DNA from: Insolitispirillum peregrinum
Lineage (GTDB): Bacteria; Pseudomonadota; Alphaproteobacteria; Rhodospirillales; Rhodospirillaceae
Direction of reading: 5' to 3'
DNA: 64,000 bases
Assembly (NCBI RefSeq): GCF_900156605.1
Contig: NZ_FTOA01000001.1
Coordinates: 496,001-560,000, forward strand
The notes beneath the pieces are model-generated. The model ran no database searches and was not told the DNA's origin. It was given only the letters and a program-made list of their open reading frames with translations. A program made the translations under genes and the position numbers. Numbering within the stretch: position 1 is the first letter of the stretch; the number at the start of each line of letters is the position of its first letter. Of this stretch, positions 25,343 to 31,571 are shown one piece after another.

Positions 25343-25786
25343 TTATAGCCGTCCCGGATGATCGGCCATGGCAGGACGGCTTGCCAGATAGCATTCCATC
25401 ATCGGGCGATAATCCATGTCATCCTTCAGGATGTGGTTGATCAGCCAGCGCTGCAGGAACGCGAGCAAGGCTTTGGCATCAAGGTTGTCCGGGCTGGAGC
25501 GGTGGAGATTTTCAAAATCCTCCAGCGTCTGTTCGATTCGGCGATGCGAGACGCTGTGAGTGGTGCAATGGTGATAGCCTGCGGCCTCCAGCAACCGTTC
25601 TTCGCGGGCAAAGTGGCTTTCCACGTAATGACGCAACGCGCTCAGGATGGCAGATATTTCTGTATCGCCATGCTGAAAGTGTACGGCGTCATCCAGCCTG
25701 TTGATGATCTGCCCCAGACGCTGATGATCATAATCAAGCGTCGGGTGACCAACGGTGTATGAGTCTTGCCATACGAAATAAGGCAT
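25343..25786 (-). CDS. Bacteriohemerythrin
   Basis: This 147-residue single-domain hemerythrin is an O2-binding or O2-sensing di-iron four-helix bundle. All expected ligand positions are present: TLDYDHQRL, HFAREERLLEAAGYHHCTTHSVSH, and NHILKDDMDY. The ATG at 25786 was preferred; an in-frame ATG five codons upstream is possible. It faces the flagellin gene and lies less than 2 kb from the hemerythrin-type chemoreceptor, so a common link to oxygen and motility is likely (inference). Confidence 0.93.
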   Translation of the reverse strand: MPYFVWQDSYTVGHPTLDYDHQRLGQIINRLDDAVHFQHGDTEISAILSALRHYVESHFAREERLLEAAGYHHCTTHSVSHRRIEQTLEDFENLHRSSPDNLDAKALLAFLQRWLINHILKDDMDYRPMMECYLASRPAMADHPGRL

Positions 25787-26114
25787 GGGACAGGATTCCA
25801 TCGTGCGGGGGTGGTCGCGTGGGATACAGGTTTCTTCCCGGCTATTTTACGGGAAAACATTCTTCAATGCATCAGGCCAAAGGATGGGCCCTTGCAGGAA
25901 AAATGTACAGGTTGTGATACAAAAGGTCCGTTTGCCCCAATCTTGTCCAAAGGGATGGTTTCTGAATAGTCTCCAGGATCAAATGAGCGTCTACATCCTA
26001 TAATGCATGCCGTCGTGATGGTCTGTGGAAGCTATTGTTGCATGCTTGACAGTGGACTGCAGAATTCTTGATGGTTCGTGATACCATTATTTCGGGTGCC
26101 TGAATCGGCAATGG
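25787..26114. other. Intergenic region, nothing identified
   Basis: About 330 bp lie between the hemerythrin start and the end of the ABC transporter gene. Base composition is less GC-rich than in the genes. Short open frames lack ribosome sites. The hemerythrin promoter should be here, but no clear -35/-10 pair was seen. Confidence 0.5.
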
Positions 26115-27983
26115 CTATTGAAATTCGACAACAGCAAAGCCATTCACCCGATTCAGCAGGATATGGCGCTGATGAAATGCCTTCAGGCCATCGTGGTTGC
26201 CAATGGTGATGATGGTGGCTTGCGGGAATTCCTCCAGCAAAAGTTCCATCATGCGAATTTCACTTTGCTGGGACAGGGAGTCGGTTGCTTCCTGAATGAA
26301 GATCCACTGCGGGCGATGCAGTAAAAGCCGCGCAAAACCAAGGCGTTGTTGTTCTCCACTGGCAAGAACCTGTTCCCAGTTTTCTGTCTCGTCCAGGCGT
26401 TTCCCGAGGGCGCCGAGGCCGACGCGTTGCAAAATGGCCTGCAAGTACTGATCATTGACCGGAGTGGGCAACCCCGGATAACAAACCGTATCGCGCAGGC
26501 TGCCAAGCGGCAAATAGGGGCGCTGGGTCATGAAAAAGATGCTGCCATCGACCGGCAGGGCGACGCTGCCGTTCCCCCATGGCCATAGTCCGGCAACGAC
26601 CTTGAACAGCTTGACCGCCGCACCGGAATCCCCGGTGATCAGCACGCGGTCGCCATAGTTGATATCGCAGTCAAAGGGCAGCAGGACAGGGCTGCCGTCC
26701 GGGTTGTTGACCGCAAGGGCGCGAAATGACAGGTGCGGCGTGTCATTGCGAGTGGTTGCGATCATGGGCGGTTCACCCTCGCTGCTGGCCTGACCCCGCT
26801 TGCGGGCGACGGCATCCAGAGCCTCGTGGAGCCCTTGCACACGCTCAACCGATGCTCGCCATTCTGCCACTTTGGCCAGGTTGTCGATGGGCCAGGAAAG
26901 GGCGGCAGCCATTTGCTGGAATGCCTGTGCCGTCTGCATCAGGCCTCCCAGCGAGATGGCCCCGGCGATGTAGCGAGGGGCTGCGATCAGGATCGGGAAA
27001 ACCTGCGACAGAACGGCCCAGCTGGAGACGAACAGAAAGATGTTGGACAGCGCGATGGTCTGGCGATCCCAGGCGCCTTTTGCTCCCCGGAACAATTCGA
27101 CAAAATGACGGCGTTCTCCGGCCTCGCCCCGCAGCAGGGCGATGGCCAACGAGTTTTCGCGGGCATGAACCAGACCAAAGCGGAAATCGGCTTCGGCGGT
27201 CTGGCGTCTGTTGACAGCGCGGACCAGTGGGCGGCCCAGCAGGACGGCGACGGTGGTGCCCAGTGCGGCATAGACCATTGCCACCCAGACCAGATGTCCG
27301 GGCAAATACAGTTCATGGCCGTTCAGATGGACTTCCGGCGGGCCGGACAGGGTCCACAGAATGTGGGTAAAGCTGACCAGCAACATGGCTGAATAGAGCA
27401 GGGAATGGGCCAGATCAATGGCGTATTCGGTGGTGATGCGAATGTCCTCGGCAATGCGTCCGTCGGGGTTGTCATGCTCGCCGGGGATTTGGGTCACCTG
27501 ATAATGCCGCCCGGATGCCATCCACTCATTGATCATCCGGCGGGTCAGCCAGCGCCGCCAACTGACCTGCAGGCGCCGTTTGACGCGTAAATGGGTGGTG
27601 ACGATGGTAACGTTGGCAACAACAATGATCGCAAGGACGCCGATCAGGGTCAGGAACTCCCCGAACATCCGCTGTTCCAGTGCGTCAAACAGGCGTTCAT
27701 TCCACAGGTTCAGGGCCACGGGCACCCCCACCTGTGCCCCGGTCAGGGTGATCAGCGCGGCGGTCATGCCCCAGGCATGCCATTTTTCGCGGGAATTCCA
27801 GTATGGGCCTGCCAGGGTGACGAACTGGCGAAAAAACACCCGCCAGCTTTGCATGGGATGACCTGCGCTGCTGTTGCCTGTCGGTGCGGGGTCGTGGTCG
27901 GCGTCCCCCCAGTGTGATGCCTCATCGGCGGGATGCGGAGGGGGCTCCGGGGTGGTGGTATGGGATGGCGGGTCGCGATCCAT
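26115..27983 (-). CDS. ABC transporter fusion (YddA/SbmA-BacA-related) with degenerate ATPase
   Basis: This protein of about 622 residues has an N-terminal membrane domain of the ABC_membrane_2/SbmA-BacA type, with NPDGRIAEDIRITTEYAIDL and the LVHARENSLAIALLRGE segment. A C-terminal nucleotide-binding domain follows. The ATPase is damaged at key sites. Walker A reads ITGDSGAAVKLFKVV (nt about 26595-26639) instead of GxxGxGKS/T. Walker B reads WIFIQEATDSLS, with Gln for the Mg-binding Asp (nt 26292-26294). The switch His is shifted (TIGNHDG). The signature ASGEQQRLGFARLLL is intact. It may be a non-hydrolysing or proton-driven variant, or a decaying gene; the frame is open throughout. ATG 27983 has AGGA at good spacing; ATG 27989 is an alternative. 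Confidence 0.88.
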   Translation of the reverse strand: MDRDPPSHTTTPEPPPHPADEASHWGDADHDPAPTGNSSAGHPMQSWRVFFRQFVTLAGPYWNSREKWHAWGMTAALITLTGAQVGVPVALNLWNERLFDALEQRMFGEFLTLIGVLAIIVVANVTIVTTHLRVKRRLQVSWRRWLTRRMINEWMASGRHYQVTQIPGEHDNPDGRIAEDIRITTEYAIDLAHSLLYSAMLLVSFTHILWTLSGPPEVHLNGHELYLPGHLVWVAMVYAALGTTVAVLLGRPLVRAVNRRQTAEADFRFGLVHARENSLAIALLRGEAGERRHFVELFRGAKGAWDRQTIALSNIFLFVSSWAVLSQVFPILIAAPRYIAGAISLGGLMQTAQAFQQMAAALSWPIDNLAKVAEWRASVERVQGLHEALDAVARKRGQASSEGEPPMIATTRNDTPHLSFRALAVNNPDGSPVLLPFDCDINYGDRVLITGDSGAAVKLFKVVAGLWPWGNGSVALPVDGSIFFMTQRPYLPLGSLRDTVCYPGLPTPVNDQYLQAILQRVGLGALGKRLDETENWEQVLASGEQQRLGFARLLLHRPQWIFIQEATDSLSQQSEIRMMELLLEEFPQATIITIGNHDGLKAFHQRHILLNRVNGFAVVEFQ

Positions 27984-28051
27984 GGACATTTCCTAACGCC
28001 CCTGATGGTTCGAGCCAACTTGCGAGGGGGGCTTGTGGCAGGCAAACTCCA

Positions 28052-28152: not shown

Positions 28153-28256
28153 GGGCATTACCCTTTTAAAGTATGGAAAAGATGGTTTTTTTTCCAGCCA
28201 TTTCCATTCGTGCTGTAAGATCTTCTGATGGCACCCGCAAGAAAGGAGAGACGGTG

Positions 28257-28688
28257 GTGGCGATTTATGTGACGCCGCGCATCATGCTGGATGAAAACGA
28301 GCTGGAAGAAACCTTCATTCGGGCCTCCGGGCCGGGTGGGCAGAATGTCAACAAGGTCTCTTCGGCGGTGCAGTTGCGTTTTGATGTTCGTCATTCCCCA
28401 TCCCTGCCGGACGCGGTGCGGCAGAGGCTGCTGGTGCTGGCAGGCAAACGGTTAACCCGGGATGGCGTTCTGGTCTTGTGTGCGCAAACGCATCGCAGTC
28501 AGGACCTGAACCGGCAGGAAGCCCTTGAACGATTGATCGCCCTGATCCGGCAGGCCTGTATCGTGCCGGTATCCCGGCACCCGACCAAGCCGACATTTGC
28601 ATCCCGCCAGCGGCGTCTGTCCGCCAAAGGACAGCGCTCTGTCACAAAAGGATTGCGCGGGCGGCCCGGTGTAGGGGGCGATGACTGA
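28257..28688 (+). CDS. arfB: ArfB (YaeJ), peptidyl-tRNA hydrolase for ribosome rescue
   Basis: This is a protein of about 143 residues that releases peptides from stalled non-stop ribosomes. The catalytic GGQ is in IRASGPGGQNVNKVSSAVQLRFD, followed by LVLCAQTHRSQDLNRQEAL. The basic C-terminal tail (TKPTFASRQRRLSAKGQRSVTKGLRGR) should enter the mRNA channel. I chose GTG at 28257, 7 bp after AGGAGA, because the length then matches ArfB (about 140 residues); the preceding GTG and upstream ATGs would add residues not found in the family. Confidence 0.92.
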   Translation: MAIYVTPRIMLDENELEETFIRASGPGGQNVNKVSSAVQLRFDVRHSPSLPDAVRQRLLVLAGKRLTRDGVLVLCAQTHRSQDLNRQEALERLIALIRQACIVPVSRHPTKPTFASRQRRLSAKGQRSVTKGLRGRPGVGGDD

Positions 28689-28909
28689 AGGGAAAATCAA
28701 TCATGGCATGCCCGGTGCCGAGGCATTTGCGCTCGCACCAGAAACGTCCCATGACCGGATAGCGGGAAATACTTATGGATATCTTGCCGTGTGATGGGGT
28801 GTGCCTCTGCCGGGACATATTTTTACCGGTTATCTGATATGCTCTTTTGTCTGCTCCTCTGTCTGCGTATAGTCCGATTGGATTACGGGGGCCGGTGAGG
28901 GTGAGCAAC

Positions 28910-30796
28910 GTGAACGGGGTTGGCAGACTGTTTCCCACGAAAGACCGAGGGCTTGCACCAGAACACCCGGACCATGCAGGGTGTGTGCAGGGGGCTCTCC
29001 CGGTCGAGTTGGGAAGTCGGTTGAATCATGCTTATCTGGGCGGGGGGCGCTGGCTGATCGCCGGGGCAACCGTCATCGCCACCGTTCTTGTGGCCTTGTC
29101 GATGGGAAGCCGGGTGGCGTGGTCATCGCTTGCCGTGTGGGCCGGCGCCTCTTTACTGCTGACCCTGGCGTTGGGGGTGGCCGTGACGGCTTTTGGGTCG
29201 TCTGGTGATCGTGATGTGAACCCGCGCATCTGGCGGTGGTGCTTTGTGGCTTTGTCAGCCCTGCAAGGCGTGGTGTGGGGGGGAGGGACCTGGTTTTCTT
29301 ATGTCGTGCCGGTCGATCAGGGGGCGATTGTCTATCTGGTCGCCCTGCTTGGCCTGATGGCGGTGGCTGCCGCCAGTCAGGCGGCGATCATTGTGGCGGC
29401 GTGGGCATTCGTGGTGCCTGCCGGGGGGCTGTTGGCCACGCGTGTCCTGTTGCAAGGGGGGGCATATGCGCCAGAGATCGCCGGGGCAGTGATTGGCGTC
29501 ACACTGCTGCTGTCCTGTATGGCGTGCCGTCTGTATCGCGCCTTGCGCACGGCGTTGATGCAGGATGAGCAAAACCGGCGGCTGGTGGTCGATCTCAGTC
29601 AGCGTGAACAGCATTTCCAGAACCTGATCGATAACGTTTCCGACCTGATTGCCGTCGTTGACCGGCGAGGCCAGATTTCCTTCCACAGCCCGTCTACCGA
29701 GCGTTTGCTGGGCGTTCGGCGGGATGCCCTGATCGGTCGCAATATCAGCGATATTGTGCACCCGGACGATCTGGTCGGGTTGATGGCTGATTTTGCCGCC
29801 TTGCTGCAGGATAACCAACGGGTTGCCAGTCGGGATGTCCAGCTTCGCCATATCAGTGGTGAATGGCGGGCGATGCATATTCACGGGCGTGCGCTGGTCT
29901 CGGAGATCGGTGCTGAAAGCATTGTCTTGTCCGCGCAGGATGCCACCGAGCAGATGAAGGTGCGCGAGACACTCCGCATCGCCAAAGAGCAGGCCGAAGC
30001 GATGGGGCGGGCAAAGACGGACTTTCTGGCGGTGATGAGCCATGAAATCCGCACGCCGATGAGTGGTATTATCGGCTTGATCGACCTGCTGAAAACGACC
30101 GGCCTGACCGAAAAGCAACGCGAGTACGTCGGGGCGCTGGATCGTGCAGGCGAGCATTTGTCTGACCTGTTGAACGATATTCTGGATTTCTCCAAGATCG
30201 AAGCCAACAAGCTGGAAAGCGAGCGGATTGTTTTCGACCTGCGCAAAATGCTGGGCGGGGTGATGGATATTTTCCGCGCCCGGGCCGAGGCGCAGGGGGT
30301 CAGGCTGGTTGCCCGGGTGTCGGACAGTCTGCCGCGATTGTGGACTGGCGATGTGCGGCATACCCGTCAGGTTCTGGCCAATTTGCTGGGGAATGCGGTC
30401 AAGTTTACCGAAACAGGCTATGTGGAAGTCTGCATTGATCGGGACGGAACGGCCGCGGATGGGCGGACGCTGTTAAAGATTGCCGTCGAAGATACCGGCA
30501 TTGGCATTGCCGACGACAAGCTGTCACATATTTTCGAGCCGTTCGCGCAGGCGGATGCATCACCGTCGCGGCGGCATGGTGGAACCGGGCTGGGGCTGGC
30601 CATCAGCCAGCGGCTGGTCGGATTTGATGCAGGGCCGGATCTGGGTGGTGAGCCGTCTGGGCCGCGGCAGTACGTTCTTTGTGGTATTACCTCTGGAAGA
30701 GGGGGTGTCTTCGGGGGCTGCCGAGCATGCTCCACCGGCAACCCGTCGTCCGCACGAAGGCTATCGCTTCGCCGACAGCGAAGTGCTGGTGGTTGA
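28910..30796 (+). CDS. Hybrid histidine kinase, N-terminal part (frame broken near 30623)
   Basis: This is the first part of a hybrid kinase. Membrane helices fill about residues 30-210 (5-6 segments such as WLIAGATVIATVLVALSM). A PAS domain follows (FQNLIDNVSDLIAVVDRRGQISFHSPSTERLLG), then HisKA with AVMSHEIRTPMSGIIGL and the ATPase with LLGNAVKFTETG, EDTGIGIADDKLSHIFEPF and GGTGLGLAISQRLVG. After 30622 this frame becomes a nonsense tail (FDAGPDLGGEPSGPRQ...). The expected LMQGRIWVVSRLGRGSTF continues in another frame, so removing one T from TTT at 30623-30625 restores it. GTG 28910 has GAGGG upstream; the exact start is uncertain. Confidence 0.8.
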   Translation: MNGVGRLFPTKDRGLAPEHPDHAGCVQGALPVELGSRLNHAYLGGGRWLIAGATVIATVLVALSMGSRVAWSSLAVWAGASLLLTLALGVAVTAFGSSGDRDVNPRIWRWCFVALSALQGVVWGGGTWFSYVVPVDQGAIVYLVALLGLMAVAAASQAAIIVAAWAFVVPAGGLLATRVLLQGGAYAPEIAGAVIGVTLLLSCMACRLYRALRTALMQDEQNRRLVVDLSQREQHFQNLIDNVSDLIAVVDRRGQISFHSPSTERLLGVRRDALIGRNISDIVHPDDLVGLMADFAALLQDNQRVASRDVQLRHISGEWRAMHIHGRALVSEIGAESIVLSAQDATEQMKVRETLRIAKEQAEAMGRAKTDFLAVMSHEIRTPMSGIIGLIDLLKTTGLTEKQREYVGALDRAGEHLSDLLNDILDFSKIEANKLESERIVFDLRKMLGGVMDIFRARAEAQGVRLVARVSDSLPRLWTGDVRHTRQVLANLLGNAVKFTETGYVEVCIDRDGTAADGRTLLKIAVEDTGIGIADDKLSHIFEPFAQADASPSRRHGGTGLGLAISQRLVGFDAGPDLGGEPSGPRQYVLCGITSGRGGVFGGCRACSTGNPSSARRLSLRRQRSAGG

Positions 30797-31571
30797 TGAC
30801 AGTGACCTGAACCGGCTGGTGATCGGGGACATGCTGCACAGTCTGGGTCTGCGGGTGAATACGGCGGCCAATGGTGCCGAAGCGGTTGAGAAGTTTGCTG
30901 ATGGGGCCTATGCACTGGTTTTCCTGGATATCCAGATGCCGGTGATGGACGGCTTTGCCGCCGCCGAGGCGATGCGGGAATGCGAAGAGTTCGCCAGGCG
31001 CCCCCATTGTCCGATCATCGCCCTGTCGGCAACGGCTTTGAAAGATGATCAGGAGAGGGCGCTGGAGGCTGGCTGTGATGACTATCTGGTCAAGCCGATG
31101 CGCAAGGAGTCTCTGATTGCCTTGCTGAAAACCTATCTGCCGATGCTGGAAAACACCCCGGATGCCGGCGCAGCGTCTGCGGTGCAGGCGTTGTTTAACG
31201 AAGATATCCCGGTTCCGGTGCTGGAGCCGGAGCTGTTACCGCTGTTGCCGTCCTTTTTTGCCCATCTGGACAATGAAACGGCTCAGTTGGTGGAGGCGCT
31301 GGAGAAGAATGATATTCTGGCGCTGGAAAGGGTTGCCCATCAGGCAAAGGGCAATGCGATGCTGTTTGGCTTTCAGGCGCTGGTTGACATTCTGCGCGGC
31401 CTAGAATTCGCGGCGCGGGCAGAACGGGAAGGCGATGCCTTGCGGGATGAACTGTCGCTGGAAGAGCGTCTGGCAACCATTCTGCGCGAAGTCGAGCAAC
31501 TGCGGAAAAGTTGCATGAATCAAGGCTTTCTTGGCTCGACAGACAAAACTGTGCCGGTGCGTGCGGAATAA
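30627..31571 (+). CDS. Hybrid histidine kinase, C-terminal part: receiver and HPt domains
   Basis: This is the continuation of the preceding kinase after a one-base frameshift. It begins with the end of the ATPase (MQGRIWVVSRLGRGSTFFVVLPLEEG). It then has a receiver with VLVVDDSDLNRLVIGDML, phospho-Asp in VFLDIQMPVMDG and Lys in DDYLVKPMRKESL. An HPt domain follows with its His in VAHQAKGNAMLFGF. The start given is only the first ATG in this frame after the break. The intact product would be HK-REC-HPt, a phosphorelay kinase. Whether the break is a sequence error, a recent mutation or recoding cannot be told from one sequence. Confidence 0.78.
   Translation: MQGRIWVVSRLGRGSTFFVVLPLEEGVSSGAAEHAPPATRRPHEGYRFADSEVLVVDDSDLNRLVIGDMLHSLGLRVNTAANGAEAVEKFADGAYALVFLDIQMPVMDGFAAAEAMRECEEFARRPHCPIIALSATALKDDQERALEAGCDDYLVKPMRKESLIALLKTYLPMLENTPDAGAASAVQALFNEDIPVPVLEPELLPLLPSFFAHLDNETAQLVEALEKNDILALERVAHQAKGNAMLFGFQALVDILRGLEFAARAEREGDALRDELSLEERLATILREVEQLRKSCMNQGFLGSTDKTVPVRAE

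Follow-up and report, generated by a model that had tools for sequence, protein, structure and literature searches.

The stretch of DNA that we analysed (the window, 64,000 nucleotides from Insolitispirillum peregrinum) contains, on the minus strand at 26115-27989, one open frame for an ABC half-transporter of 624 amino acids, in which the transmembrane domain (TMD) precedes the nucleotide-binding domain (NBD). The frame is open from end to end, as the first-pass annotation had stated. We refer to this protein as the query, and its features are as follows.

26115..27989, minus strand: ABC half-transporter (TMD-NBD) with a degenerate NBD, 624 aa (frame and profile matches)
26805..27842, minus strand: transmembrane domain, residues 50-395, ABC_membrane_2 / SbmA_BacA-like (profiles, AlphaFold2 helices)
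27573..27593, minus strand: HLRVKRR, which contains H133 (alignment)
26118..26768, minus strand: degenerate nucleotide-binding domain, residues 408-624 (profiles, AlphaFold2)
26601..26633, minus strand: degenerate Walker A GDSGAA-VKLFK, residues 453-463, with Lys deleted and Ser replaced (alignment)
26508..26528, minus strand: Q-loop region TQRPYLP, with Gln kept in the query (alignment)
26343..26366, minus strand: signature LASGEQQR, with Ser replaced by Ala (alignment)
26271..26306, minus strand: degenerate Walker B and D-loop WIFIQEATDSLS, residues 562-573, with Asp replaced by Gln (alignment)
26187..26207, minus strand: H-loop region TIGNHDG, residues 595-601, with His shifted by one (alignment)

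The membrane domain passes the cut-offs of both PF06472 (ABC_membrane_2; 122.1 bits, cut-off 24.4) and PF05992 (SbmA_BacA; 88.3 bits, cut-off 24). It is thus related to SbmA and BacA, as had been proposed, with the higher score for PF06472. In contrast, the NBD scores only 22.7 bits against PF00005, under the 25-bit cut-off. A profile search of the protein found no extra output domain, and a profile search of the genome found no other PF06472 protein. Relative to canonical relatives, the P-loop has one residue fewer, and the gap falls on the column of the Walker A lysine. This agrees with the first-pass annotation, which had read the P-loop (GDSGAAVKLFK) as one residue short and without GKS/T; its altered Walker B and displaced switch histidine also hold, as the Walker B Asp column has Gln and the H-loop His column has Asn. 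Its description of the signature as intact is correct for GEQQR but not for the Ser of LSxGEQQR, which is Ala.

The query gene lies between a downstream gene for a hemerythrin protein (25343-25801) and a divergent upstream gene for a protein with an RF-1 domain (28173-28688), with no glycosidase beside it. At 28847-31571, a sensor kinase ORF (PAS, HisKA, and a HATPase domain that is cut short) is overlapped by a second ORF that is apparently its continuation in another frame. This looks like a hybrid kinase that was split by a frameshift.

Distribution and origin of the lysine loss

The first-pass annotation had allowed that near relatives might be canonical and that this strain alone might differ. 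Instead, the near relatives share the loss. In a search of 41 genomes (the query's own and 40 relatives), the seven nearest orthologues (53-65% identity) all lack the lysine and have the identical one-residue gap, while three loci at 36-37% identity are canonical. We also scanned a GTDB-based genome collection and kept the best 80 of 545 relatives, which gave 79 loci from Magnetospirillum, Azospirillum, Telmatospirillum, Caenispirillum, Novispirillum, metagenome-assembled genomes (MAGs), and the gammaproteobacterium Plasticicumulans. The lysine is missing from 79/79 of these loci and none has GK[ST], in a scan that is tuned to the dead clade and is not an unbiased sample of the family, because the alignment behind both of its search patterns contained dead proteins only.

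Searches by family are less biased. PF06472 is present in 97/281 genomes of the window's order, and the 99 full-length matches that we read comprise 70 without GK[ST] and 29 with it. In the class, PF06472 is present in 124/387 genomes, part of which were read. Each protein (row) was labelled "canonical" if it has GK[ST] and "dead" if it does not, so the absence of the lysine from the dead set and its presence in the canonical set follow from the sorting itself. What the sorting does not impose is that the gap always falls at one column and that the dead proteins form a single clade by their membrane domains (39/39, see below). Leaving two exceptions aside (L256 and L259), there are 159 dead rows but only 108 distinct sequences, since many genomes had been drawn from two sources. 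The lysine column is gapped in 108/108 of these and has Lys in 82/82 canonical rows. Each of the 108 has at least 73% TMD identity to a main-clade row of our tree, and no row elsewhere in the tree is as similar. Most members are alphaproteobacterial (Rhodospirillaceae, Azospirillaceae, MAGs, and a few others). L067/L135 and L260 resemble clade members and were left out of the 108; L260 (genome G658), a likely member, has one in-frame TAG stop near its N-terminus, which could reflect decay, an error, or read-through.

The tree was built from membrane-domain columns only, for 99 representatives (a "quick" tree with SH-aLRT supports and no bootstrap). In it, 39 dead rows and no canonical rows form one clade (SH-aLRT 99), and a canonical row, L238, is sister to this clade (support 98). 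Judging from the tree and the shared gap, the deletion of the lysine is most simply explained by a single loss in the clade's ancestor. The two exceptions, L256 and L259, come from one genome (G643) and are placed outside the main clade (L259 on a long branch, so that its position is unsure). An AU test rejects a single clade of all 41 dead rows (p = 5e-105), so we take these two as separate losses, apparently independent of the main clade. Both are PF06472 ABC proteins with a degenerate Walker A, and their 4.4-4.5 kb loci contain no GH1 gene.

Some members have less altered motifs. Rhodospirillaceae bacterium R-7 (L099 and L255) has the Walker A sequence GETGAG-SS, in which the lysine alone is gone and the remainder looks ancestral. 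L099 is not a basal transitional form, as the tree places it within the clade, near the query. Outside the clade, L186 (genome G201), L233, L235, and L254 have an intact Walker A with a partly changed signature, Walker B, or H-loop, and these are possible ongoing losses in other lineages. We also considered whether changes in the membrane domain accompanied the loss of the ATPase. K137, R138, Q310, and T311 do not qualify, as the canonical sister rows L238 and L239 have them too; among the compared columns, those that differ from the sister are H133, Y199, P367, Q86, E105, and E382. As the canonical sister shares most of the special residues, the membrane domain had specialised by the time that the ATPase was lost.

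Erosion of the ATP site and retention of the domain

We compared 75 non-redundant dead-clade members with 71 canonical members at the other ATP-contacting motifs. The Walker B Asp is present in 2/75 dead versus 69/71 canonical members, the signature Ser in 20/75 versus 66/71, the H-loop His in 25/75 versus 64/71, the Q-loop Gln in 41/75 versus 68/71, and the catalytic Glu in 45/75 versus 66/71. The displaced histidine of the query is frequent among its relatives in the clade: 50/75 members have it one residue later. The erosion of Walker B, the signature, the H-loop, and the catalytic Glu goes beyond what sorting on GK[ST] imposed. It is also concentrated at the nucleotide: mean conservation falls from 0.84 in canonical to 0.66 in dead proteins across 15 nucleotide-contact columns, versus 0.91 to 0.87 across 40 other NBD columns that are conserved in canonical proteins. 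From these residues, the clade protein almost certainly neither hydrolyses ATP nor binds it tightly.

Nevertheless, the domain is kept. The NBD is complete in 106/108 distinct members, and the two incomplete ones (L056 and L153) are both cut by contig ends. Across 35 disjoint close pairs of distinct dead sequences, the median dN/dS is 0.130 for the NBD and 0.117 for the TMD, as compared to 0.177 and 0.145 in 12 canonical pairs. (With some genomes counted twice, the medians for dead pairs are 0.128 for the NBD and 0.130 for the TMD.) These ratios indicate that the NBD is under purifying selection. The constraint is somewhat weaker than in canonical proteins, as NBD identity is lower at equal TMD identity (dead versus canonical: 0.452 versus 0.510 in the lowest bin, 0.512 versus 0.524, and 0.612 versus 0.641).

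The NBD is also predicted with high confidence. An AlphaFold2 model of the query, with 45 clade members in the alignment, has a mean pLDDT of 85.5, and pLDDT is above 90 in all ten-residue blocks from residue 411 onward. In this model, an ABC fold is fused behind the TMD and aligns to the NBDs of MalK, CFTR, and MRP1 (VIA-align Z of about 21). The top Foldseek match is Rv1819c (6tqe), which is also the best match by sequence among solved structures (E = 2.6e-74) and aligns with a Z of 23.0 (rmsd 5.2 over 456 residues). ATP-bound ABCD1 (7vx8) aligns with a Z of 26.0 (rmsd 4.1 over 438 residues). Most inward-facing chains align slightly less well to the modelled protomer than ATP-bound ABCD1 does, but we do not use Z differences of 1-3 from one monomer model as evidence. 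Rv1819c and the BclA/YddA-type transporters have the same TMD-NBD layout as the query. However, the BclA/YddA type has canonical ATP motifs, as does the NBD of the sister lineage, while in the query's clade the ATP-contacting motifs are eroded. The ABCD family (ABCD1, ABCD3, and ABCD4) also shares the fold but is eukaryotic and ATP-driven.

Could another protein supply a working ATP site? A dead member is carried by 67 genomes of the order, and in 56 of these a canonical full-length PF06472 protein is lacking: 53 have the one dead protein alone, 2 have two dead copies, and 1 has in addition a shorter frame (membrane domain only, judging by its length). The other 11 also have a canonical member. 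(Genome G118, with a fragment at a contig end, was counted as a non-carrier.) The family profile search found no canonical PF06472 partner in the window's own genome.

Linkage to GH1 beta-glucosidases

Using a codon-usage gene caller and direct tblastn, we found a GH1 gene in the flanks of 58/84 clade loci but of 0/22 canonical loci. The flanks of the canonical loci (10.5-16 kb in all) were similar in size to those of the clade loci. The 84 loci comprise 54/79 collection loci with GH1, 4/4 further loci (16 kb), and the window, which has none; the 22 canonical loci were picked from the order and class lists, and 8 of them come from genomes that also have a dead member. At the 26/84 clade loci with no GH1 in the available flank, the window included, some flanks are shortened by contig ends and others are full. 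In 33 of the 54 collection loci, about 100 bp or less separate the transporter gene from the nearest GH1 (approximately, as distances were taken from match ends and open frames). Two layouts predominate among these 54 loci: the GH1 gene is downstream and convergent in 38 or upstream on the same strand in 15, while in 1 it is downstream on the same strand. For example, the annotated gene order in Azospirillum lipoferum 4B is alpha-galactosidase, GH1 beta-glucosidase, transporter, and Crp/Fnr regulator.

The association extends to whole genomes: GH1 is present in 65/67 carriers versus 29/214 non-carriers (Fisher p = 4e-38, with kinship ignored), and 22 of the 29 belong to one genus. In the window's genome, GH1 is absent from the 64 kb; the single GH1 gene is on another contig (C13), and its product is up to 76% identical to linked GH1s. 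The carriers without GH1 are G193 and G194. At six loci (L036, L039, L045, L049, L054, and L055), genes of one cluster lie upstream, at a distance of about 1-1.3 kb and on the opposite strand, and the member that we scanned, in L036, is a GH65. L039 (the same gene as L190) is the locus of the GH1-less carrier G193.

Two linked GH1s (at L110 and L109) were scanned with NCBIfam, and both exceed the cut-off of the beta-glucosidase equivalog TIGR03356. The N-terminal motif is present in 82/93 linked GH1 frames, and 0/82 have a hydrophobic run ahead of it, so the linked enzymes are probably cytoplasmic. The link to GH1 points to glycosides, rather than peptides or B12, as the substrate of the transporter. 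Alternatively, GH1 could be a marker of a locus for sugar use and have a substrate other than that of the transporter.

Energy coupling and proposed role

We considered several alternatives to an ATP-free carrier. Decay or sequencing error in an ordinary BclA/YddA-type transporter, to which the motif loss itself and the stop codon of L260 might point, is so improbable that we consider it refuted for the clade: the identical gap recurs in every distinct sequence, across many assemblies and genera, and the dN/dS of the NBD is about 0.13. The query could instead, as in exporters of the TAP or TmrAB type, be the degenerate half of a heterodimer in which ATP is hydrolysed by the canonical half. Degenerate sites are reported to be common among heterodimeric exporters, and the type represented by TAP, TmrAB, and TM287/288 keeps one degenerate site and one canonical site (PMC7756269). 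The query's clade resembles these exporters in that a degenerate nucleotide site was kept by evolution, and the 11 carriers with a canonical member would fit a heterodimer. As a general rule this fails, since the canonical partner is missing from the other carriers and from the query's own genome (within the PF06472 family, to which the search was limited). Also, the combined loss of the Walker A Lys and Ser and of the Walker B Asp exceeds the usual change at a degenerate site. A heterodimer seems very improbable. Another possibility is that transport has been lost and that the protein is a membrane receptor or regulator, whose TMD senses a glycoside and whose NBD relays the signal. A dead motor under selection is compatible with signalling, and some loci have a gene for a Crp/Fnr regulator or a chemoreceptor close by. 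However, the query has no further output domain that we could find, the TMD columns that are conserved in canonical transporters remain so (0.91 in both sets), and adjacency to GH1 is more natural for uptake. We view a receptor as improbable.

A proton gradient might also have replaced ATP, through titratable residues in the membrane domain. SbmA itself is described as proton-driven via a glutamate ladder (E193, E203, E269, E276, E287, and E378), and the SLiPT proteins have the full ladder, no NBD, and no coupling helices (PMC13316013). In the query's clade, the positions of E193 and E276 are Glu in 75/75 members and that of E378 in 58/75, and His133 is invariant and clade-specific (75/75 versus 0/71 canonical members, the sister included). 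But the alignment has Glu at the E203 or E269 position in 0/75 members, so that a full SLiPT-like ladder was not found, and the E287 position aligns only across a gap and is ambiguous. The ladder of YddA is reported to be incomplete as well (PMC13316013). Nor are the Glu at E193 and E276 a marker of proton coupling, because canonical relatives have them: E276 is Glu in 71/71, and the E193 position is Glu in 43/71 and Glu or Asp in 65/71. So, as far as sequence can tell, the specific sign of SbmA-type coupling is absent, though proton coupling could run through other residues; we consider a proton-driven transporter unlikely, if less so than the alternatives above. This bears on the proposal in the first-pass annotation that the query lost the use of ATP but kept the domain, as an intermediate towards SbmA and BacA. 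Loss of ATP use is very probable and the domain is under selection, but an intermediate is not supported. In the TMD tree, the clade is far from SbmA; the transporters around it are full-length, and its sister is canonical. SLiPT (SbmA and proteobacterial BacA) has a related membrane domain and works without an ATPase, but the query's clade has kept both the NBD and, in the sequence alignment, a 12-residue stretch that is lacking in SbmA, and it lacks the E203 and E269 equivalents.

In our view, the query belongs to a branch with a dead ATPase that has been conserved for long and is related to the BclA/YddA group, and it is most likely an ATP-independent carrier tied to glycoside metabolism. 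The sequences of the clade show the shared deletion of the Walker A lysine, most simply from one loss in the ancestor, and drift at the other ATP-contacting residues in an NBD that is otherwise intact and under purifying selection. We propose that the protein acts as a homodimer, with the NBDs serving as a structural or gating scaffold. The substrate, a beta-glucoside or similar glycoside, would move by alternating access without ATP, either down its gradient (facilitated) or together with ions, and its consumption by the cytoplasmic GH1 beta-glucosidase might sustain the inward flow. The parts of this proposal differ in strength. The dead ATPase is well supported. It is quite probable that the NBD is retained for a structural role, and we lean towards ATP-free transport, in which a carrier drawn by the hydrolysis of its substrate is plausible. 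That GH1 provides this pull, on a glycoside, is more tentative: the GH1 gene of the window's genome is unlinked and 26/84 loci have no flanking GH1, which counts against it. Taken as a whole, a "pseudo-ABC" glycoside transporter, long conserved since a founding loss, independent of ATP, and with its NBD kept as a scaffold, strikes us as an even call.

ATP hydrolysis is reported to be essential for BclA (PMC12003926). Two precedents speak for ATP-free transport in part and against it in part. The mycobacterial BacA is described as transporting cobalamin in both directions with ATP, which speaks for it, but its transport is described as strictly coupled to ATP hydrolysis, which speaks against it (PMC10960864). 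A D-loop mutant of TAP is reported to be a passive bidirectional facilitator, again in favour, but one that is still gated by nucleotide (PMC4242082), and the query protein could hardly be gated in that way. A limited literature search, of titles and the openings of abstracts, found no published description of the dead clade or of its link to GH1. Smith et al. classified BclA by profiles and trees, and the words motif, Azospirillum, and Magnetospirillum are absent from the main text (PMC12003926).

ABC transporters are defined by their use of ATP. A stronger form of our proposal, which we consider rather less likely than not, is that this is an ancient class with ABC architecture and with neither ATP site working in any member: an ATP-free glycoside carrier whose direction is set by a linked cytoplasmic beta-glucosidase and whose NBD dimer is purely a scaffold or gate. 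It would then be a second independent route, besides SbmA/BacA, from an ABC pump to a secondary or passive carrier, and one in which the NBD was not shed. Two further losses, in other parts of the family, suggest that the loss of the ATPase is not a unique transition. As a large clade that seemingly lost the use of ATP once, long ago, and that probably forms homodimers while retaining the whole NBD under selection, it would offer a direct test of the non-hydrolytic role of the NBD and a system in which to study the conversion of a primary pump into a secondary or passive carrier. The linked GH1 provides a concrete first guess at the substrate and at an assay.
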